Shown here: positions 4,086 through 37,410 of the stretch, piece after piece | Numbering within the stretch: the first letter of the stretch is position 1 | Layout: the number at the start of each line of letters is the position of its first letter | Assembly: GCF_029872055.1 (NCBI RefSeq) | Contig: NZ_JARXNQ010000001.1 | Coordinates: 62,001-126,000 of the forward strand | DNA length: 64,000 nucleotides | Reading direction: 5' to 3' | From: Sulfurimonas sp. C5 | GTDB lineage: Bacteria; Campylobacterota; Campylobacteria; Campylobacterales; Sulfurimonadaceae | Made by a program: the position numbers and the translations under genes | Notes under the pieces: model-generated | What the model was told of the DNA's origin: nothing | Databases searched by the model: none | The model's input: only the letters and a program-made list of their open reading frames with translations

Positions 4086-7000
4086 GAATCATCTTTCATT
4101 TCGTCAAGTGCCAGAACTGCAGCACGTGCAGCACTTAAAGTTGTAAAGTAAGGGATATTACGTTTTAGAACTTCTTGACGAATTACAACTGCATCTTTTT
4201 TGCTTGTGTTATTATCTGAAGTATTGATTGCCATTGCAATCTCATCGTTTTTCATAGCATCTTCGATGTTAGGACGCCCTTCAGAGATCTTTAGAACCAC
4301 TTCACACTCTACACCAGCTTGTTCAAGAGTTTGTTGTGTACCTTTTGTAGCCACAAGTTTAAATCCATGACGTACTAAGTCTTTTGCTAAAGGAATAGCA
4401 TGCTCTTTATCTGCATCTACAAATGATAAGAAACATGTACCAGCTGTCGGGATATTGTTTCCTGCACTTAATTGAGCTTTTGCAAATGAGATACCGAAGT
4501 TAGAACTGATACCCATAACTTCACCGGTAGATTTCATCTCAGGAGAAAGAACTAAGTCAGCACCGTAAAGTTTATGGAATGGGAATACCGCTTCTTTAAC
4601 AGAGATATGACCTTTAAGTTTTGGACGCATTAAACCGTTAACTTCTTCAACAATATTGTATTTATCGTAGTATGCAAGAGAGTCTCTTAAGTTCTCACCC
4701 ATCATTACACGAGTTGCTACTTTAGCCAGAGGCATACCAGTCGCTTTAGAAACGAAAGGAACTGTACGAGAAGCTCTAGGGTTTACTTCAATTAGGTAAA
4801 TTTCACCTTCATAGATAGCGTATTGAACATTCATAAGACCACATACACCAAGACCAAGTGCGATAGTTTTAGTTTGTGCTTCAACTTTTTCGATCATCTC
4901 TTGAGAAAGGTTTACAGGCGGTAGTGAACATGCTGAATCTCCAGAGTGGATACCGGCTTCTTCAATATGCTGCATAACAGAACCGATATATACTTCATTA
5001 CCGTCAGAGATACAATCAACGTCTAGCTCGATCGCTTGGTCTAAGAACTTGTCAATAAGAACCGGAGCTTCATTTGAAACAGAGATAGCTAAATCCATAT
5101 ACTCATTTAATTCAGCTTCAGAATATACGATTTTCATACCACGACCACCAAGAACGAATGATGGACGAACAAGTACAGGGTAACCTATTTTTTCAGCGAT
5201 AGCAGGAGCTTGCTCTTTAGCACTAGCTAAACCGTTAGCCGGTTGTTTAAGACCGTGTTTGTTTACGAAATCAGAGAATTGTTCTCTATCTTCTGCTAGA
5301 TCAATTACAGCTGAAGGCGTTCCAGAAATTTTAGCACCGATTTTTGTAAGACCGTCTGCCAGTTTAAGTGGAGTTTGTCCACCAAAGTGTACGATAATTC
5401 CATCTGGGTTTTCAGTATCAATTACTTCTCTTACGTGTTCAAAGTCAATCGGTTCGAAATAAAGTACATCTGAAGTATCATAGTCTGTTGAAACAGTCTC
5501 AGGGTTACAGTTGTACATAATAGTTTCAATACCCATCTCTTTTAAAGCAAATGCTGCGTGTACACAACAGTAGTCAAATTCGATACCTTGACCGATTCTG
5601 TTTGGTCCACCACCTAGAATAAGAACTTTTTTCTTATCTGATTCTCTTTTAGAAACAGGAAGTTTTGTGATGTTAGTAGTTGAATAAAGGTATGGAGTCA
5701 GTGCTTCAAACTCTGCTGCACAAGTATCTACTTCATTGTATTCTTGTCTTACGCCAAGTTTTTTTCTTGCTTCAAATACATCGTTTTCAGTAACTTTGTT
5801 ATCAGTATTTTGAGACACTAGTTGTGCAATTCTTTTGTCTGAGAAACCGTCAACTTTAGCGATTCTCATAGCTTCTTCTTCAAAAAGAACTTTATCATCC
5901 ATAGCTTTTTCAGCTGCAATAAGCTCTTCGATTTGGTATAAGAACCAAGGATCGATATTACAAAGCTCAAAGATGTCTTCAACACTTAAACCGCGACGGA
6001 AACCTTCTGCAACATAAAGAATTCTGTCTGCATTTGGACGACGGATTTCGTGTTTAATAAAATCTTCATCAGCATCAATTGGATCAAGACCGCATAGTCC
6101 AGTCTCAAGTGAACAAAGTGCTTTCTGAAGAGATTCTTTAAATGTACGACCGATTGCCATTGCTTCACCAACAGACTTCATTGAAGTTGAAAGTGTACTG
6201 ATAGCTTCAGGGAATTTCTCAAACGTAAAACGAGGTACTTTTGTTACAACGTAGTCAATTACAGGCTCAAATGCTGCTGGAGTTCCCGTAATGTCATTTG
6301 TGATTTCATCAAGTGTAAAACCAACTGCAAGAAGAGTTGCTACTTTTGCGATCGGATAACCCGTTGCTTTAGATGCTAGTGCAGATGAACGAGATACACG
6401 AGGGTTCATCTCAATTACGATCATACGACCAGTTTTAGGATCAATTGAGAACTGAACGTTTGATCCACCAGTGTCAACACCGATTTCTCTTAGAATAGCA
6501 AAAGAAGCATCACGCATTCTTTGATATTCTTTGTCTGTTAGAGTAAGTGCAGGAGCAACAGTAATAGAGTCTCCAGTATGTACACCCATAGGGTCGAAGT
6601 TTTCGATTGAACATACGATGATACAGTTGTCCGCTTTGTCACGGATAACTTCCATCTCATACTCTTTCCAACCGAGCATAGATTCCATAATTTCGATTTC
6701 ATTAATAGGAGAAGCTGAAATTCCTTCTTGAGCAAGTTTCTCAAACTCTTCCATGTTGTATGCTACACCTGAACCACCACCGGCTAGTGTAAATGAAGCT
6801 CTTGAGATAACAGGGAAACCTATCTCTTTAGCAACTTCGATTGCTTCTTCAACACTGTATGCATTTTTACTTTTTGGTAAATCCATACCAATTTTAATCA
6901 TAGCTTCATTGAAAAGGTGTCTGTCTTCACCTTTACTAATAGCTTCAGGGTTTGCACCTAAAAATTCTACCCCTTCTAACATCCCTTTTTCATACATTTT

Positions 7001-14464: not shown

Positions 14465-15688
14465 ATGTATAATTCTTTTATGAAAGAATTCTTTATTAAG
14501 CTGCAAAACTATTTAGTCTTACGATTTAACAGTGTTACTATTCGTCAGGCAAATATTGTAACGACACTTGTTATTTTGCTTTTTACTATAGTTTTTGCCT
14601 ACTTGCTTATTAAAGAAAATTACCATGATTATGAGATAACGCTCTCTCAACAGCACCATGAACAAATGGCAGGTACTCCATATAATTATGATGTAGCGCA
14701 AGAGAAACTAAAATCCCTTTTAATTAAAAACACTTTAGCGATTGCAACGCTGGCTTTTATCCTTTTTGCGATCATGCTGGGGTTTTACAAGATCTTCAAT
14801 ACTCTGCTCCAAAGAGATATGGAGTCGTTTTTGATCTTCTTTAAAGATGCGGCACACAACGATCAGGTGATTAATCCAAATACGATCTTGTTTAAAGAGT
14901 TCAAAACAATGGGAACGCATGTAAACGAAATGGTTGATACAATCAATGAACAAAAGCGTACACTCAGAGAACTGAATTTACATTTGGAAGATAAAGTAAA
15001 AGCAAAAACACAAGACCTTGAACGCATTTTGGATGCACAAAAAGAGTTTTTGCGTTATACGGTACATGAAACAAATACACCGCTTAGTGTTATATTGACT
15101 TCGTTAGAACTGTATGAGATGAAGTATGAAAAAGATAGACATCTTGCAAAAGTAGAAGCGGCTGCGAAAAATATTTTTAATATTTATGATGATCTTAGTT
15201 ATCTGGTGAAGAAAGAACATATTAATTATCCTAAAGTATCTATAGATATTAACAAATTCATTAAAAGTAGAATAGACTTTTTCTCTGAAGTGGCAAACCT
15301 CTCAAGTGTATCTTTCTCATTTCATAGTGAAGTAGAAGGTGCATATATCTTTTTCAATAAAACAAAACTACAGCGTATTATTGATAACTCTATAACCAAT
15401 GCAATCAAATATACATATAGAAATGAAGTAGTAGATGTAAAGTTGACTAAAACTATGCATGAAGTTGAGTTTTCCATAGGAAGCAAGTCTCAGCCGATTA
15501 AAAATATTGATAAGATTTTTGATGAATATTATAGAGGGGAAGATGAACAAACTTCCAAAATAGAAGGCTTTGGAATAGGGCTTCGACTTGTAAAAAACAT
15601 ATGTGATGAAGAAGGTGTGAAGATTTCACTAGATCGCAGTGATGAAAAAAACACTTTTATATATAGATTTACGATAATGGGTGAATAG
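14465..15688 (+). CDS. Membrane sensor histidine kinase
   Basis: A 407-residue kinase with two membrane segments (about residues 30-50 and 90-112) enclosing a short periplasmic loop of about 40 residues. A coiled coil (about 150-190) and the transmitter domain follow. The phosphoacceptor is His201 in YTVHETNTPLSV. The N box is in RIIDNSITNAIKY and the G2 box is GFGIGLRLV. A canonical DxGxG G1 box is replaced by DKIFDEYYRG. It shares a TAGATGA junction with the response regulator gene. Position before porin, ActP and acs suggests control of acetate use. Confidence 0.9.
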   Translation: MYNSFMKEFFIKLQNYLVLRFNSVTIRQANIVTTLVILLFTIVFAYLLIKENYHDYEITLSQQHHEQMAGTPYNYDVAQEKLKSLLIKNTLAIATLAFILFAIMLGFYKIFNTLLQRDMESFLIFFKDAAHNDQVINPNTILFKEFKTMGTHVNEMVDTINEQKRTLRELNLHLEDKVKAKTQDLERILDAQKEFLRYTVHETNTPLSVILTSLELYEMKYEKDRHLAKVEAAAKNIFNIYDDLSYLVKKEHINYPKVSIDINKFIKSRIDFFSEVANLSSVSFSFHSEVEGAYIFFNKTKLQRIIDNSITNAIKYTYRNEVVDVKLTKTMHEVEFSIGSKSQPIKNIDKIFDEYYRGEDEQTSKIEGFGIGLRLVKNICDEEGVKISLDRSDEKNTFIYRFTIMGE

Positions 15689-16345
15689 ATGAAAATACTT
15701 GTATTAGAAGATGAAGTGATGCTCAACGAATCGATTTGTGAGTACTTACAATCATTAGGTCACATTGTTGAAGCGTTCTTCGATGGAGAGAGTGCATACG
15801 AAGCTATGCAAAACAATAAATACGATCTTTTTCTACTAGACATCAACGTACCGCAAATTGACGGTCTTTCTATTTTAGAACAGCTTCACAGCATGAAGAT
15901 TCATGTACCTACGATCTATATAAGTGCATTGGTAGATATAGAAGATATCTCCCGTGCATACAATTTAGGATGTTACGATTATCTCAAAAAACCTTTTCAT
16001 TTGAAAGAATTAGCTCTAAGAATAGACCGGATTGTTATGTCTGCAAAAACTCCAAATGTCCATATGGTGCTTTCAAAGAACTATAGTTACGATCAGGAAC
16101 ACTCAACACTCTATTTTCAACAAGAAGCACAAACACTTACAAAGAAACAATCACAGATTATCGATTTACTGGCTAGAAACCGTGGTTTGGTAGTAGACTT
16201 TGACCAGTTTCAAGAGTATGTATGGAATGACGCAATAGTAGACAATGCTACGATTCGTGCCGAGATAAACAGACTAAAGAAGGCTCTTAAAGAGGATATT
16301 ATAGTAAATGTTCGCGGTATGGGTTACATGATTGAAAAACCTTAG
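15689..16345 (+). CDS. OmpR/PhoB-type response regulator
   Basis: A 218-residue two-domain regulator. The receiver has acidic residues ED near 7-8, phosphoacceptor Asp51 (FLLDINVPQIDG) and Lys in YLKKPF. The C-terminal winged helix (about 130-218) includes NATIRAEINRLKKAL and ends VRGMGYMIEKP. It follows the kinase gene directly. The probable target is the porin-actP-acs run just downstream. Confidence 0.93.
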   Translation: MKILVLEDEVMLNESICEYLQSLGHIVEAFFDGESAYEAMQNNKYDLFLLDINVPQIDGLSILEQLHSMKIHVPTIYISALVDIEDISRAYNLGCYDYLKKPFHLKELALRIDRIVMSAKTPNVHMVLSKNYSYDQEHSTLYFQQEAQTLTKKQSQIIDLLARNRGLVVDFDQFQEYVWNDAIVDNATIRAEINRLKKALKEDIIVNVRGMGYMIEKP

Positions 16346-16391
16346 TTACTTTTTTACTCACTTTTAAAACTTTTATATTAATTTTCTTAAT

Positions 16392-16419
16392 AATAGCATT
16401 TTGCTACGTTCATGCTATT
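16392..16419. repeat. Inverted repeat between response regulator and porin genes
   Basis: AATAGCAT/ATGCTATT (8 bp, 12-base loop) followed on the plus strand by TTCATTTTTTAG. A further AGCATTA lies at 16430-16436 and GCTA in the loop. It may be a terminator for the two-component operon or a regulator site before the porin; the repeated TAGCAT motif favours a binding role. Confidence 0.4.
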
Positions 16420-16465
16420 TTCATTTTTTAGCATTAGACTTGAATACTTTAAATGGGGAGAAAAA

Positions 16466-17824
16466 ATGAAAAAAAGTATCACATTAAGTCTTATTGGATG
16501 TGGTCTTGTTGCTGGTGTTAATGCAAATGCAGCAGAAGATCTGAGTTCAATGTTTTCTGAGGGGAAAGCAAGCGGACAAATTAGAGAATTTAGCATTGTA
16601 AGAAGTGTTTCAGACACTAGAAGTGCTAAAAGTGACTACACAAGAAAAGCCAATGCTGTTGGTGGATATTTAAAATTTGAAACGGCAGATTTTAAAGGTC
16701 TTAGCTTAGGTACTGCATTTTATACTACAAACGGTTTTAACTTAGATAGCCCGAAAACTGACTATGTAAAGGTAGATCCATCACTTTTAGGTCCTGACAA
16801 CAAGAGTATCTCATATATTGGTGAAGCGTATGTTCAATATAAATATGAAAATACGGTTTTCAAAGGCGGTCGTCAAAAGTTAGATACTCCATTAGCGGGT
16901 AGCGATGATGCGAGAATGCTACCAAACTTATTTGAAGCATATCTTTTAATTAATAAAGATCTTCCAGATACTACTATCGTAGCAGGTCATGTAACAAGAT
17001 TTGCTCAAGGTACTTTCGGTCGTGTATACACTAATGGTATTTTACCAATAACATCAGGTTATTCTGCTGTTGATGCTCATAGTAACGTAGGTAAATTTGT
17101 GAATATGGGTACATACGCACTTGGTGAAGGCAAAGATACAAAAGGTGTAAGTGTGGCATCTGTTACATATACTGGTGTTCCTAACCTTAAAGTTCAATTA
17201 TGGGATTACTATGCTCACGATATTTTAAATGCAGTCTATGGTGAGTTAAACTATAGTATGCCGTCAAATTCAGTATCTCCATATGTTGGAGCACAATTCA
17301 TTAAAGAAGATGAAGTAGGTGATAAGCTTGCTGGAACTGTAAATGGATTGTATGGAGCTGCAAAAGTGGGTGTTAAAGTTGCAAACTTTAATGTATATGC
17401 TGCATACTCACAAACAAGTAAAAACAGTGCTAACGATGCATCTACTGCAAATGCTATTATCACACCATGGGGTGGTATGCCGGCATATACGCAAGGTATG
17501 GTTACACGTCATATGTTCCTAGCAGGAACAAAGGCTGCAAAAGCGGCTGTATCGTATGACTGGAAAGATTTTGGTGCGAAACTGACTTCTGCAGTATACT
17601 ATGCAAACTTTGATATGGCAGCGAATAATGGATACACAGAAGGTGATGCTTCTGAAGTAGGATTTGATGTGATATACTATCCGTCAATGATCAAAAACTT
17701 ACAAGTACGTTTTAGAGGAAACTTTACAAACGACTTTTATGTAAACAAAACTAATGCTGACACGACTTTACGTGGTGCGGTTGAGTGGGATGAGTATAGA
17801 TTTATCCTAAACTATAACTTCTAA
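16466..17824 (+). CDS. OprD-like outer membrane porin
   Basis: A 452-residue outer-membrane channel of the OprD/OMP-dehydrogenase-associated porin family common in Campylobacterota. The signal peptide is MKKSITLSLIGCGLVAGVNA-NA. The start at 16466 is chosen for GGGGAG just upstream, although the frame is open 18 codons earlier. Strand-like alternation runs to the C-terminal aromatic EYRFILNYNF. Motifs such as FKGGRQKLDTPLAGSDDARM match the family. Being upstream of actP, it probably passes small carboxylates such as acetate. Confidence 0.85.
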   Translation: MKKSITLSLIGCGLVAGVNANAAEDLSSMFSEGKASGQIREFSIVRSVSDTRSAKSDYTRKANAVGGYLKFETADFKGLSLGTAFYTTNGFNLDSPKTDYVKVDPSLLGPDNKSISYIGEAYVQYKYENTVFKGGRQKLDTPLAGSDDARMLPNLFEAYLLINKDLPDTTIVAGHVTRFAQGTFGRVYTNGILPITSGYSAVDAHSNVGKFVNMGTYALGEGKDTKGVSVASVTYTGVPNLKVQLWDYYAHDILNAVYGELNYSMPSNSVSPYVGAQFIKEDEVGDKLAGTVNGLYGAAKVGVKVANFNVYAAYSQTSKNSANDASTANAIITPWGGMPAYTQGMVTRHMFLAGTKAAKAAVSYDWKDFGAKLTSAVYYANFDMAANNGYTEGDASEVGFDVIYYPSMIKNLQVRFRGNFTNDFYVNKTNADTTLRGAVEWDEYRFILNYNF

Positions 17825-26184: not shown

Positions 26185-26275
26185 GGACAGATGGGTGAGC
26201 TGGCTGAAACCACATCCCTGCTAAGGATGCGTATGGGTAACTGTACCGAGGGTTCGAATCCCTCTCTGTCCACCA
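26185..26275 (+). tRNA. tRNA-Ser (GCT)
   Basis: A 91-base class II tRNA with encoded CCA. The acceptor stem is GGACAGA/TCTGTCC, the D arm GGT/ACC, and the anticodon stem CATCC/GGATG with loop CTGCTAA (anticodon GCT at 26220-26222). A long variable arm marks tRNA-Ser, and the T arm is GAGGG-TTCGAAT-CCCTC. It reads AGC/AGU codons. The discriminator base is A rather than the G common in bacterial tRNA-Ser. Its 3' end is the attachment core of the adjoining element and remains intact after integration. Confidence 0.95.
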
Positions 26276-26278
26276 CTA
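26259..26278 (+). repeat. attL core repeat in the tRNA-Ser 3' end
   Basis: The 20-bp sequence TCCCTCTCTGTCCACCACTA covers the 3' T stem, acceptor stem and CCA of tRNA-Ser. It is repeated perfectly at 37391-37410. The integrase gene starts 188 bases inside the left copy. Confidence 0.92.
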
Positions 26279-26466: not shown

Positions 26467-27690
26467 ATGGCTAGACCTACAACACAACTCACAGCAACAC
26501 AAATCAAAGAAGCTAAATCAAAAGACAAGAACTATAAGCTTTTTGATGGTGGGGGCTTATTCCTCGAAGTAACCCCTACGGGTAATAAATCATGGAAATT
26601 AAAATATCGTTTCGAAAATAAAGAGAAAAAATATACTATTGGTAAGTATCCAAGTATATCTTTGGCAACTGCAAGACAAAAAAGAGAAGAGTTAAAAACT
26701 CTTATTGCAGAAGGTATTGATCCTAATGAGAAAAAGAAACAAGATAAACAACTTCAAGAACTACAGAAAAATAAAGAGACTAACACATTTAAAAAATTAG
26801 CATTACAAAGACTTGAGAAAGTACAAGAAGATATTAGTGAAAGTCATTACAAGAGAATGATGAGAGGTTTTGTTAATGATGTCTTTCCGTTTATAGGGGC
26901 TAAGCCTATAGATGATGTAACAGCTGATGATATTATCGATATAATGCAAAGAATGGAGAAGAGAGGAGTTAAAGAAAGTGCAAGAAAACTCTATCAAGCT
27001 ATCAGTAAAACATACAAGTGGGCTGTAAGTAATCGTTATGCTAAAAGAAATCCTGCTAATGATATTGATTTAAATGAACTTTTAGGAAAACGACAAGTAA
27101 CACATCATGCGACTTTTACAGATGATGTAAATATTTCAAGATTACTATTTGCAATAGAAAAATATCAAGGTGAAATAACTACAAAACATGCTTTAAAACT
27201 TATGGCTTATACTAGTTTAAGAACAGCCAATATTGTTGAAGCAGAATGGAGTGAGATTGACTTTAGAAATAAACAATGGAATATTCCTGCTAGAAAAATG
27301 AAAACAAGAAGCGATCATATTGTCCCTCTTACAAATACTACACTAAAAATATTTGAAGAGATGAGAGAATATACAGGTAAGAATAAATATATTTTTACTG
27401 GTACAAAAGGGAAGAATACACATATTGGTAGTGAAACACCAAGAAATGCTATAAGAAATATGGGCTTTACATCAAAAGAATTTACACCTCATGGATTTAG
27501 AGCTATGTTCAGTAGTATCGCACATGAAAAAAGTCCTTTTAAATATGAAGTCATTGAAGTGCATTTAGCTCATAGTATAGGTAATAGTGTTTCTAAAGCA
27601 TATAATCGTGCAAAGTATCTTGATGAAAGAAGAGAGCTTATGCAATGGTGGAGTGATTATTTAAATGGGGTGATATCTAATGAAACCTAA
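26467..27690 (+). CDS. int: P4-type tyrosine integrase
   Basis: A 407-residue site-specific recombinase. The N-terminal DUF4102 (arm-binding) domain has FDGGGLFLEVTPTGNKSWKL and YTIGKYPSISLATAR; a SAM-like core-binding region (about 105-195) and the catalytic domain follow. Catalytic residues are visible as Arg252 (TSLRTANIVEAEW), His342-x-x-Arg345 (HGFR), a later His in HLAH and the nucleophile Tyr379 (KAYNRAKYL). It presumably inserts and excises the element at the tRNA-Ser repeat. Its end overlaps the next gene by 11 bases. Confidence 0.95.
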   Translation: MARPTTQLTATQIKEAKSKDKNYKLFDGGGLFLEVTPTGNKSWKLKYRFENKEKKYTIGKYPSISLATARQKREELKTLIAEGIDPNEKKKQDKQLQELQKNKETNTFKKLALQRLEKVQEDISESHYKRMMRGFVNDVFPFIGAKPIDDVTADDIIDIMQRMEKRGVKESARKLYQAISKTYKWAVSNRYAKRNPANDIDLNELLGKRQVTHHATFTDDVNISRLLFAIEKYQGEITTKHALKLMAYTSLRTANIVEAEWSEIDFRNKQWNIPARKMKTRSDHIVPLTNTTLKIFEEMREYTGKNKYIFTGTKGKNTHIGSETPRNAIRNMGFTSKEFTPHGFRAMFSSIAHEKSPFKYEVIEVHLAHSIGNSVSKAYNRAKYLDERRELMQWWSDYLNGVISNET

Positions 27691-28401: not shown

Positions 28402-28578
28402 ATGAGTAAAAAATATATAAGAGCCAAAGAAGTTGCTCAATATTTGGGTATAGGGTTAAGTACTGTTTGGTTATATGCTAAACAAGGAAAATTACATCCT
28501 AAAAAAATTAGTGACAGAGTTACAGTTTTTGAAGTATCAGAATTAGATGCTTTATTTAATAGTGAAGTGGAGGTATAA
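28402..28578 (+). CDS. AlpA-like HTH regulator/excisionase
   Basis: A 58-residue protein with a single winged HTH of the MerR/AlpA type: KYIRAKEVAQYLGIGLSTVW (residues 4-23), then YAKQGKLHPKKISDRVTVF and a short acidic tail. In P4-like elements AlpA activates int or acts as an excision factor, and in Gram-negative PICIs it is the island activator. Its stop is 4 bases before the primase-helicase ATG, so the two are one operon. The palindrome just upstream may be its own operator. Confidence 0.85.
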   Translation: MSKKYIRAKEVAQYLGIGLSTVWLYAKQGKLHPKKISDRVTVFEVSELDALFNSEVEV

Positions 28579-28582
28579 GATT

Positions 28583-31093
28583 ATGAAAAAGCAAGAGACC
28601 TCTAAAAAGAAGCCTATTGATATTATAACAAATACTTTATCAATGAGCTTTGCAAGAGTAAGAAAAGATAAAGTAACAACTTTTGGCTATAAAATGAAAC
28701 ATTTTAACAATGCTGAAGAATTCATAGTTCAACTAAACTCTGAAGCCACTATACCTGTATCTGTAGAAGGTGGACATAGAAAAACTTCAAACATTACTGA
28801 GGTGTTTGGTTGGATTAGATTTGATACTGACCTTGAAGGTGAAGCTGATGAGTTAGAGAAATTGTTTATAGAATACAATTTGTGGTTTATTAAAAAACCT
28901 TCAACGAATCATAAAAGTAATCCTTATAAGTTTCACTTTTTAATTCAAGTGACTAATGTGGCTCAACATCCAACAGCTTATAAACTTCAAGTGGCTGAAT
29001 TTATGGAACGTTTTAATGTTCCTAAAATACAGGATATGAGAGCTACAACCTCTTTAGCTCAAAACTTGAATCCCTGTAAAGAAGATGTGTCTTATTGTAG
29101 AAAACATACAGTAATAAATGAAGGTGAAGTGGTTGAACTTAAAACAATTGATGAAGAATTTGAACCTATAAAAGAGGGTAGATATGCTAATTGTCAAATT
29201 AAAGGTGATTTAGAATTACCAGAGTTTATCGGTGAAAAAGCACTTAAAATTCCACCTGTAAATAAAAAAACGGGTGAAGTACAAACTCCAATACTTTCAA
29301 GAGATGGATTTATATTATCTGAAGATGGATGGATTAAGTTTTCAGAAATTGAAGAGTTTTTACATACCCAACCTAAAGGTACAAGATATTCTCAATTAGC
29401 TTGTCCAATATGTAATAAAGAACATTCTGATGGTACAGGTTTTACCACTGGGTATGCTTTTGCGTATATAAGTAATAATGAGAAAAAACAGTTAATTGTA
29501 CAGTGTGGAGGTTCTGGATGTAGTGGACATTCTTTGTATATTTTAGATGATGGAAGAAAAGAAGCAAATAAGACTCTTACACAAACTGAGGTTATGAAGA
29601 TGATTGAAGATGCTGAGTTTTTTGAATATACAGCAATAGAACCACTTTTAGATGCTATAGCATGTGTAGATGTAAAAGCTGTAAGAGGATCATTGTGTAA
29701 TCAATTAAAAGATCGTGCTGAAAGAACATACAAATATTCAGTAGTTGATCTAAAAAAAGATGTTGAAAAACGTGTAAAAGATCAAAAAGATGCAACAGGT
29801 TCATTTTCACTTACTTCTTTATTTGAACATCCTCTTTTTTGGGATTCTAATAAAGCTGTAATGGCTGAAGTTGGTGAAGGTGTATTTAGAATTTATAAAC
29901 CTACAGACTTTAATCAGACTGTGGCTAGTAGATCAAAAGGTGCAATTACTGTCAAAGATGTAACTAACTACAGACATACAATACCTGAAAAGATTTTAGT
30001 TTATAAACCTGACCATGATAATTCAAAAAAATTATTTGAAGATGGTTTAGAGGCAATTAATATTTATCAAACTCCCCCATTTAAAAGAGATAAGTCTATT
30101 AAAACAATGCCTCCTTATACTAAACAGTTTTTAAACACTTTATTTGAAAGTGATAAAAAGGCAAAAAAATATTTTATCCATTGGTTAGCCTATATTGTTC
30201 AAAAAAGAAAAAAAACTGGTATAGCATGGGTATTTCATGGTTTACAAGGATCTGGAAAAGGAATTACAGCGACTATAATAAGTCATTTAGTAGGTAAAAG
30301 GAACTGTAGATTAAATCTTGGAAATACGGATTTAGAAAGTCAGTTTAATGGTTATATGTTTCAGTCTATGTTTTTAGAATTTAATGAAGTAGCTATAGAT
30401 ATAAAAAGTAGAACGAAAATATCTAATACTTTAAAAACAATTATTACTGATTCAGCAGTAGAGATTAATCAAAAGAATGTGAAACAATTTTCAGCGATTA
30501 ATTATACAAATGTAATCATAAGTAGTAATAGTTCAAAACCCATCCAAATTGAACCTGATGATCGTAGATTTAATGTTGTAACAACTAAGAATAAATTGAT
30601 TGAACAATCTTGGTGGAATGAAAAGGCACACGATCAAATAATGTTTGAAGTGGAAGAATTCTATAACTACTTGATGAATTTAGTTATAGATGTAAAAAAG
30701 GCTACAAGGGTAATGAAGAATTCTATTGCCAAGGAAAATATGGTTGGATTGACTAATAATAAAATGAATCAGTTAATTGATGCTTTGAGAATAATGAGTT
30801 TTGAAAAATTTACAAATCTCTTTGGATTTGAACCGAAAGATAAACAATATCAAGAAGCCAAATGGTCATTTAAACATAAAAGATTTAGAACCACTTTTTT
30901 AATTGATTGTCTTGCTCAAAGTGGTATAGAGTCATTTGCGTTTACGAAAGATGAACATAAATTCGATAGAGCTTATCAAACAAGGACAAGTAAATTACTT
31001 CATTGTGAATTAAAGTCTATATTGGAGTATGAAAAAAGTTCTTCTATACGAGGTTTTGATAAAAAACAATCAAGTCACCTTATTTTTAAGTGA
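28583..31093 (+). CDS. Primase-helicase replication protein
   Basis: An 836-residue protein from the ATG at 28583, chosen for GGAGG at 28569-28573; an in-frame ATG at 28547 lies inside the AlpA-like gene. The N-terminal region (about 20-170) looks like an archaeo-eukaryotic-type/RepB-type primase domain, e.g. WIRFDTD and PYKFHFLIQV. A zinc-binding segment begins with CPIC at 274-277 and ends CGGSGCSGHS. A superfamily 3/DUF5906-type helicase has Walker A GLQGSGKG at 553-560 and MFLEFNEVA as a likely Walker B. Comparable to P4 alpha and PICI Pri-Rep proteins. It should start replication at the iterons just downstream. Confidence 0.88.
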   Translation: MKKQETSKKKPIDIITNTLSMSFARVRKDKVTTFGYKMKHFNNAEEFIVQLNSEATIPVSVEGGHRKTSNITEVFGWIRFDTDLEGEADELEKLFIEYNLWFIKKPSTNHKSNPYKFHFLIQVTNVAQHPTAYKLQVAEFMERFNVPKIQDMRATTSLAQNLNPCKEDVSYCRKHTVINEGEVVELKTIDEEFEPIKEGRYANCQIKGDLELPEFIGEKALKIPPVNKKTGEVQTPILSRDGFILSEDGWIKFSEIEEFLHTQPKGTRYSQLACPICNKEHSDGTGFTTGYAFAYISNNEKKQLIVQCGGSGCSGHSLYILDDGRKEANKTLTQTEVMKMIEDAEFFEYTAIEPLLDAIACVDVKAVRGSLCNQLKDRAERTYKYSVVDLKKDVEKRVKDQKDATGSFSLTSLFEHPLFWDSNKAVMAEVGEGVFRIYKPTDFNQTVASRSKGAITVKDVTNYRHTIPEKILVYKPDHDNSKKLFEDGLEAINIYQTPPFKRDKSIKTMPPYTKQFLNTLFESDKKAKKYFIHWLAYIVQKRKKTGIAWVFHGLQGSGKGITATIISHLVGKRNCRLNLGNTDLESQFNGYMFQSMFLEFNEVAIDIKSRTKISNTLKTIITDSAVEINQKNVKQFSAINYTNVIISSNSSKPIQIEPDDRRFNVVTTKNKLIEQSWWNEKAHDQIMFEVEEFYNYLMNLVIDVKKATRVMKNSIAKENMVGLTNNKMNQLIDALRIMSFEKFTNLFGFEPKDKQYQEAKWSFKHKRFRTTFLIDCLAQSGIESFAFTKDEHKFDRAYQTRTSKLLHCELKSILEYEKSSSIRGFDKKQSSHLIFK

Positions 31094-31175
31094 TCTTAGA
31101 GAGTGGTGGGGAATGTATATTATATATATTTACCATCATGTAGAGTAGTATTTTTTAAGGTCTTGGAGAGATTAT

Positions 31176-31351
31176 GGTGAACATGGTGAATATATTCTAA
31201 GTATTATATTCTTATATAAAGAAAAAATAGTTATAAAAATTATTTCTATAAAATTCTATATTAAAAATGTTCACCATGTTCACCAATTAGTGTATTAAGC
31301 CCAAAAATAGGTTTGAAAACGCATAAACATTATATTCACCAAATGTTCAAC
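31176..31351. other. Putative replication origin with iterons
   Basis: Six 9-bp iterons. On the plus strand, GGTGAACAT (31176-31184) is joined to GGTGAATAT (31185-31193). In the opposite sense lie ATGTTCACC twice in tandem (31267-31284), ATATTCACC (31332-31340) and the one-mismatch ATGTTCAAC (31343-31351). The two tandem pairs create a perfect 16-bp inverted repeat (31175-31190 with 31270-31285) around 79 bases that contain only 8 G or C. GGTGAACA-type iterons are, from memory, what P4 alpha binds. The whole non-coding stretch 31094-31552 holds this, plus a tandem CGTAGGAAA repeat near 31391-31410 and nothing else clear. Confidence 0.75.
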
Positions 31352-34786: not shown

Positions 34787-36010
34787 TTGAGTTTATATCT
34801 ACCTGATGAGTTATATGTAATATTAGAAAAAATTGGATGGGATAAGTCTGAAAATGTAGCTGATTTTTGGTTTAAGCATAGAAATGATATCTCGAAAGAA
34901 CTCTTTAAATCATTTTCTGAAACAAGCTTTATAGTTTTTGAAAACCAAATTAGATGGAAAAGTGATATTGGTCAAGAATGCGAAAAACAAGTAAAAAGCT
35001 TTTTAGAAAATGAAGTGGCAAGAATAAAAAAACTACACGAAGAGGCTTATAAAGTTAGTGCTCAATTAACTTCAAAGCAAAAGACAGTTAATTTTAGTAA
35101 TTTTACTTTTACTTTTAATGGAATATCATATACACTTAATGACTTTCAACACTATTATAAAAATTGTCCAAAGATCTTTCCTAATGCAAACTTGCAAGGA
35201 ATTAATTTAGAAGGGATAAAATTACATCATTGCATAATCGAAAATGTTAGTTTTGCATATGCAAATCTTAATAACTCTGCACTAGGGGCTACATTTAGTA
35301 ATTGTAGTTTTGTAGGTACTATTTTGACGAACTCTCGTTTAGGCTTCAGATTAATGAATAACACTTACATTGAAGGTTCTAATCTAGAAGGTGCAAGGAT
35401 AAATGCTGTAAATTTTGGTGATGATGCTCTTTCTAGTAAATTTCAATATAAAAAAGTATCATATTTATATTTATTAAAGTGTATGTTTTTAGTTTTAATA
35501 TTAAGACAAAAACATTTTATTGAAAAAGAGAATCAAAAACATACAGTCTTTATTTCTAATTTTACGGATAGGCTTACAACAACTTATAATAAACCAATTA
35601 AGTCTTATATAAATTGGTATGAATATGTATTTTCTCAATTAAGAAACTTTCACTCATTATCGTTTGCAGAAAAAACATTATTTACTATGTCACTAATATT
35701 TACAAAGTCGTGGACTTCTTATTTAGTATTAGCGTCTTGGGCATTAATAGCTAATTTATTATTTGCATATTTTTATTATGTTATCTATGTTATTGATGCA
35801 ACAAGTTTCAATATACCAGAAAAGTCCATCATAGATTATTTTACTATGTTTTATTACAGTATTGTGACTTTTACGACATTAGGTTATGGCGAAATTACAC
35901 CTGTGACTTATTTTACTAGGTTGCTTGTAATAGGTGAAGTTCTTTTAGGTTATATAACTTTAGGTTCATTCGTATTCTTAATTGGACATAAAGCTAGTGA
36001 TAGATTTTAA
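34787..36010 (+). CDS. Pentapeptide-repeat protein fused to a two-TM potassium channel
   Basis: A 407-residue membrane protein with a TTG start behind AAGGA. Residues 1-130 are a charged helical region. About 131-212 are pentapeptide repeats (NANLQGINLEGIKL..., SFAYANLNNSALGATF), forming a beta-helix. A link with a further helical part follows. The C-terminus is an ion-channel domain with TM1 about 310-335, pore helix, selectivity filter TLGYG (Thr364-Gly368) and TM2 about 379-400. The filter is that of K+ channels. A soluble sensor coupled to an ion pore inside a mobile element suggests a membrane-depolarising effector; this is inference. Confidence 0.85.
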   Translation: MSLYLPDELYVILEKIGWDKSENVADFWFKHRNDISKELFKSFSETSFIVFENQIRWKSDIGQECEKQVKSFLENEVARIKKLHEEAYKVSAQLTSKQKTVNFSNFTFTFNGISYTLNDFQHYYKNCPKIFPNANLQGINLEGIKLHHCIIENVSFAYANLNNSALGATFSNCSFVGTILTNSRLGFRLMNNTYIEGSNLEGARINAVNFGDDALSSKFQYKKVSYLYLLKCMFLVLILRQKHFIEKENQKHTVFISNFTDRLTTTYNKPIKSYINWYEYVFSQLRNFHSLSFAEKTLFTMSLIFTKSWTSYLVLASWALIANLLFAYFYYVIYVIDATSFNIPEKSIIDYFTMFYYSIVTFTTLGYGEITPVTYFTRLLVIGEVLLGYITLGSFVFLIGHKASDRF

Positions 36011-37390: not shown

Positions 37391-37410
37391 TCCCTCTCTG
37401 TCCACCACTA
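37391..37410 (+). repeat. attR core repeat
   Basis: A perfect 20-bp copy of the tRNA-Ser 3' end (T-stem arm through CCA and CTA) without the rest of the tRNA, marking the distal end of the element. Confidence 0.92.

Follow-up and report, generated by a model that had tools for sequence, protein, structure and literature searches.

A putative iteron-type replication origin directly downstream of the primase-helicase gene of an integrative element in Sulfurimonas sp. C5

A cluster of short repeats follows a primase-helicase gene (rep) in a 64-kb stretch of the Sulfurimonas sp. C5 genome (here the window, meaning the whole stretch analyzed). Do these repeats form a replication origin and, if so, of which replicon and of which known type? 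A first-pass annotation had read them as an iteron origin with a layout of the P4/SaPI type and a very conserved pairing of rep and origin. The evidence below makes it very probable that an integrative element of 11.1 kb has its replication origin at positions 31126-31351. This reading is well supported, and what is new about the feature is its place rather than its kind.

Repeats and A/T-rich core

Six copies of a 9-bp iteron with at most one mismatch lie inside 180 bp, the first strong copy (31176) beginning 83 bp past the rep stop (31093) (Table 1). Four of them form two tandem pairs that face each other across the A/T-rich core (>> [73 bp] <<), and these arms contain a perfect 16-bp inverted repeat (31175-31190 and 31270-31285). 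The tandem iterons and their inverted copies had been annotated at exactly these positions. The 79 bases with 8 G/C reported between them proved to be the spacer of the inverted repeat, the distance between iteron pairs being 73 bp with 7 G/C, and the two further downstream copies, one mismatched, were recovered at 31332 and 31343.

The iteron cluster is not a product of chance. It has six copies in 300 bp, against no more than four in any of 200 dinucleotide shuffles or, among 213 tiles of 300 bp in the window, in any tile elsewhere. The inverted repeat is the only perfect 16-mer of its kind in the 64-kb window (spacers of 20 to 200), and the A/T richness of the core is equalled by just 0.016% of 73-bp windows. 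Repeats common elsewhere in the chromosome had been named as evidence that would speak against an origin; the doubled iteron (at most one mismatch) has no second site in the 2.06-Mb genome. Among 228 genomes of the family, an exact match to the doubled iteron was found only at this locus, and single matches with one mismatch were about as frequent elsewhere as those of a reversed-pattern control. GC skew, a check proposed in the first-pass annotation, shows no inversion at the repeats and is uninformative.

Table 1. Features of the integrative element and its putative origin (positions in the window)
Feature	Position	Strand	Basis or remark
tRNA-Ser(GCT)	26185-26275		ARAGORN
attL, 20-bp repeat TCCCTCTCTGTCCACCACTA	26259-26278	.	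Exact repeat; overlaps tRNA-Ser(GCT) 3′ end
Tyrosine integrase (Arm-DNA-bind_3 + Phage_integrase)	26467-27690	+	Pfam, E 6e-28 / 4e-21
AlpA/excisionase-like small HTH protein	28402-28578	+	HTH_17, E 5e-9; weak AlpA match; phrog_66 excisionase and regulator
Rep	28583-31093	+	DUF5906, E 1e-17 (Pfam)
Degenerate iteron ATATTTACC	31126-31134	-	Two mismatches to GGTGAACAT; upstream of main set
Iteron GGTGAACAT	31176-31184	+	Sequence match
Iteron GGTGAATAT	31185-31193	+	Sequence match
A/T-rich core	31194-31266	.	73 bp, 7 G/C, 90% A/T; presumed melting region
Iteron GGTGAACAT	31267-31275	-	Sequence match
Iteron GGTGAACAT	31276-31284	-	Sequence match
Outlying iteron GGTGAATAT	31332-31340	-	Sequence match
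Outlying iteron GTTGAACAT, one mismatch	31343-31351	-	Sequence match
attR, second 20-bp copy	37391-37410	.	Exact repeat

The integrative element

The element is ~11.13 kb long, bounded by 20-bp direct repeats at 26259 and 37391, and carries an integrase, a small unknown protein, an AlpA/excisionase-like HTH protein, Rep, the repeats, and cargo. The order int - regulator - pri/rep - ori within an att-bounded region of this size matches that of phage-inducible islands of the PICI type. No PICI-specific morphogenesis, interference, or packaging genes were recognized in the island with Pfam, PHROGs, or PADLOC. In the product of one cargo gene (34787-36010), pentapeptide repeats are joined to a two-helix ion channel domain; this protein might act in defence or signalling. 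The word TAGGGGCTW occurs at both island ends (26400, 26440, 37323, and 37335) and likely marks the arm-type sites of the integrase.

Integrases 41-60% identical to that of the island are encoded in other Sulfurimonas genomes (L165-L184), most with an AlpA-like gene, and are followed by other replication modules. The possibility that the iterons travel with the integrase was rejected on these grounds, the doubled iteron being absent from those elements, and rep and origin appear to be swapped as one unit. One related island (L165) has ACTTGTCGGTGCCGATACATAA repeats after a second replication-like reading frame (~4730-4790, locus reverse complement), which resemble another iteron system.

The Rep protein

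Rep consists of an N-terminal primase domain of the AEP type (DxD..H, by motif), zinc-knuckle-like cysteines, an SF3/DUF5906 helicase, and a C-terminal region; DUF5906 is its only Pfam match. Its SF3 helicase places Rep in the clade of the phage NrS-1 polymerase. The helicase domain of that polymerase is the nearest solved protein (E 6e-54; 36% identity over 281 aa) and also ranked first when a moderate-confidence helicase model was searched with Foldseek (E 1e-30), followed by the SaPI5 primase-helicase (E 5e-10).

Residues D81, D83, and H118 are invariant across 13 aligned Rep relatives, and the N terminus is shared, at 29-41% identity, with the primase of a Thiohalocapsa phage and with proteins encoded on an IMG/VR contig and in one genome of the same family. 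A profile search found no solved relative of this domain, and its structure model is of low confidence; the assignment as an AEP-type primase is made at the level of motifs. The C-terminal region, in which AlphaFold pLDDT falls below 50 over the last half, is presumed to bind DNA.

Single-protein scans of genomes and viral contigs found no close homologue of Rep, the best matches being 36-38% identical over the helicase, and distant relatives were reached by alignment searches. The comparison below is thus one of arrays at the same place in more distant relatives rather than an alignment of the window's own repeats.

Repeats downstream of rep in relatives

In the helicase tree, Rep groups with L068 and L069 (support of 97/92) and, with moderate support (90/75), with NrS-1 and L148. 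Repeats directly follow rep in all five of these loci, those of L068 being fewer and looser, and the repeat words of the four nearest relatives differ from that of the window: AAAGTGTAACC in NrS-1, AAAGTGTTACC in L148, and TACTGTTTT in L069. Farther away, the words are GTGATACTAAA (L009 and L021), AGGGTCTAAA (L007), GTGTTCCTG (L015), GTGTTTCTG (L016), GGGTGAGTG (L047), TGTCTTATC (L044), and GTGAGCCAA (L046), with others in further loci. The Thiohalocapsa phage, which shares the N-terminal domain, has nine copies of GTGTTCCCA after rep. In the same phage (L150, 5428-5830), many TGTTCCCA / TGGGAACA repeats after the primase gene overlap an annotated hypothetical gene.

Dense repeats (at least five in 300 bp) were found downstream of rep in 20 of 95 loci, upstream in 6 of 84, and inside the gene in one. 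Their carriers are clustered on the helicase tree (6 changes versus 16.6 in shuffles). Many DUF5906 relatives, ~40 distant marine viral contigs among them, lack iterons after rep, which counts against the origin reading; iterons are thus no general trait of DUF5906 proteins. Judging from these sequences, position and, loosely, layout are conserved across relatives, and the iteron sequence turns over fast. The very conserved pairing of rep and origin that had been proposed is therefore not borne out at the level of the iteron sequence, as the nearest relatives have other iterons.

A single strict layout common to all relatives was also rejected. A module with 35-47-bp spacers and two or three leading copies (>>>< [35-47] >) is found in a subset (L044, L009, L021, L007, L041, and NrS-1) and is absent from the window. 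Within the L043/L044/L046 group, the Reps of L044 and L046 share 82-98% identity in their first ~200 residues but much less thereafter, which suggests recombination between replicases.

Covariation of the iteron with the C-terminal domain of the helicase was another check proposed in the first-pass annotation. Rep pairs with the same iteron (L009/L021 and L043/L044) have C termini at least as conserved as the rest of the protein, whereas the C termini of different-iteron pairs within related clusters are less conserved than the rest. The pattern is no more than suggestive: the rank correlation is only 0.49 (Spearman; P 0.07; the pairs are not independent of each other), and the pairs L015/L016 and NrS-1/L148, with iterons one base apart, run against the trend.

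Candidate origin of phage NrS-1

In phage NrS-1 (AB746912; 37,159 bp), all 11 genome copies of AAGTGTAAC lie at 17062-17377, and the array begins right after the polymerase gene (14895-17051). It sits within the annotated hypothetical gene NRS1_29 (17055-17456; L149), which is probably not a real protein gene. The 8-nt priming site of the polymerase, TTTGGTTA (PMC8718748), occurs once in AB746912, at 17198-17205, inside the array. Two copies of the priming site in the center of the genome, possibly an origin, were reported previously (PMC7102993), versus the single copy in this record. The array is a candidate origin of NrS-1.

The L148 protein is 68% identical to that of NrS-1, and the layout of the array is kept, but GTTAC has become GTAAC in most iteron copies. 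This concerted change took in tandem and outlying copies along with the others, as is expected if a single protein reads all of them.

Among solved proteins, the NrS-1 polymerase is closest to the Rep helicase, and iterons likewise follow its gene directly. Nevertheless, the two systems differ in several respects: the iteron is AAAGTGTAACC rather than GGTGAACAT, the NrS-1 array has more copies, another layout, and a 45-bp inner spacer, the zinc motif is missing from its polymerase (PMC8718748), BLAST does not align the two N-terminal domains, and NrS-1 is a complete phage.

Alternative explanations of the repeats

A hairpin or cruciform with 22-nt arms and a 67-nt loop could form from the facing arms and be read by structure, the iteron words being stem sequence only, as in plasmid pRN1, where the origin 3′ of an AEP-SF3 gene is a 100-nt stem-loop with a 21-nt stem and a 58-nt loop, BIP-1 being similar (PMC4234260). 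The arms of the window are 91% complementary, and their DNA fold has a z-score of -3.9. The stem would leave out the extra iterons at 31332 and 31343, which share a single orientation, and in NrS-1, L148, and L009, direct and inverted copies at irregular spacing stand in place of one long stem. The joint change of the tandem and outlying L148 copies with the rest also argues against reading by structure, which we consider unlikely here.

A role as operator in rep autoregulation, or as parS-like partition sites, with no origin involved, is far less probable. Operators can take the form of repeated words near a regulator-rich element, and dense repeats do precede rep in the few loci counted above. 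The repeats of the window follow the gene rather than preceding it, promoter or terminator signals at them are no better than chance, and no ParA/ParB-like protein was recognized in the island with Pfam or PHROGs. Furthermore, such a role would leave the 90% A/T core unexplained. Arm-type sites of the integrase, or a structured RNA, are scarcely credible readings of the repeats: the integrase does have an arm-binding domain, but TAGGGGCTW at both element ends fits that role and the iterons are 5 kb away, and an Rfam search at the repeats found no match.

Comparison with characterized origins

Position, statistics, and relatives support the first annotation in so far as it placed an iteron origin, with arms around an A/T core, immediately 3′ of the primase-helicase gene. 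An origin 3′ of rep is experimentally known for SaPI/PICI elements, in which two iteron sets flank an A/T-rich region (PMC6092414), and is backed by deletion analysis in pRN1 (PMC4234260). The window matches the SaPI/PICI arrangement of a primase-helicase gene followed by two such sets (PMC6092414), and SaPI5 is the next structural match to the Rep helicase after NrS-1. The differences are the lack of recognized PICI genes for morphogenesis, interference, and packaging, the phylum, and the location of the island in a tRNA gene.

According to the first-pass annotation, P4 alpha recognizes iterons of the GGTGAACA type, and the P4 record does contain this word 11 times. All eight of its bases are contained in the window iteron, crr follows the alpha gene directly, and both systems have iterons in both orientations. 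The P4 half of the proposed P4/SaPI-type layout did not hold, as P4 ori has the structure >>>< [35 bp, 83% A/T] >> and P4 has a duplicated crr, which the window lacks; the SaPI/PICI half stands, the window being nearer to the published PICI arrangement than to that of P4 (PMC6092414). Kinship with the P4 system was not supported either. The alpha primase is of the TOPRIM type (PMC4234260), whereas that of Rep is AEP-type by motif with no TOPRIM match in Pfam, and similarity of Rep to alpha is barely detectable (best E 0.001), so Rep was rejected as a P4 alpha protein. Descent of the word from P4 was rejected as well, since iterons of the nearest relatives match GGTGAACA at only 4-6 of 8 positions. 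The identity is probably coincidence or convergence rather than descent, because even proteins that are 68% identical can have different words. The word common to P4 and the Sulfurimonas island should not be taken as shared descent.

The Sulfolobus plasmid pRN1 resembles the window in its AEP-SF3 protein (ORF904) and in an origin ~54 bp 3′ of the gene with inverted arms and a long loop (PMC4234260), but it has no iterons. In SCCmec (Cch2 / CCPol-MP), AAGTG iterons after the helicase gene form a putative origin, are bound by a C-terminal domain, and are also used for priming (PMC7581432). Unlike in the window, primase and helicase are separate proteins and there are three direct iterons only.

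Proposed replication of the element

By analogy with SaPI, P4, pRN1, NrS-1, and SCCmec (PMC6092414, PMC4234260, PMC8718748, and PMC7581432), the integrase and the AlpA-like protein would first excise the element. Rep, encoded just upstream, would then bind the GGTGAAYAT iterons, probably via its C-terminal region, and may assemble on the two facing pairs as two hexamers, as SaPI Rep does. Its SF3 helicase would open the 73-bp core, its AEP-type domain would lay the first primers, and the excised circle would be copied in theta mode.

In the NrS-1-type clade, the Rep helicase could conceivably land on the same iteron that the AEP domain of this protein recognizes for priming, although we regard this as rather doubtful. 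GTG occurs in 7 of 13 iteron families versus 2.7 expected (P 0.006) and is the core of the second priming motif of the NrS-1 polymerase, whose 8-nt priming site falls within the NrS-1 array; pRN1 tolerates loss of GTG motifs (PMC4234260). Uniform outward priming from the orientation of GTG was rejected, as the inner pair is > < in the window and < > in P4, L009, and L044. If the dual role is real, one polypeptide would use a single word to link priming with origin recognition.

Implications

Iteron origins after AEP/SF3 primase-helicases are now extended to islands and phages of Campylobacterota. The more useful part of the work is a by-product: phage NrS-1 now has a candidate origin, which the cited papers treat as a possibility only although the polymerase of this phage serves as a biochemical model. 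In addition, the concerted change of the iteron word between NrS-1 and L148 offers a natural experiment on the joint change of an initiator and the sites that it binds.
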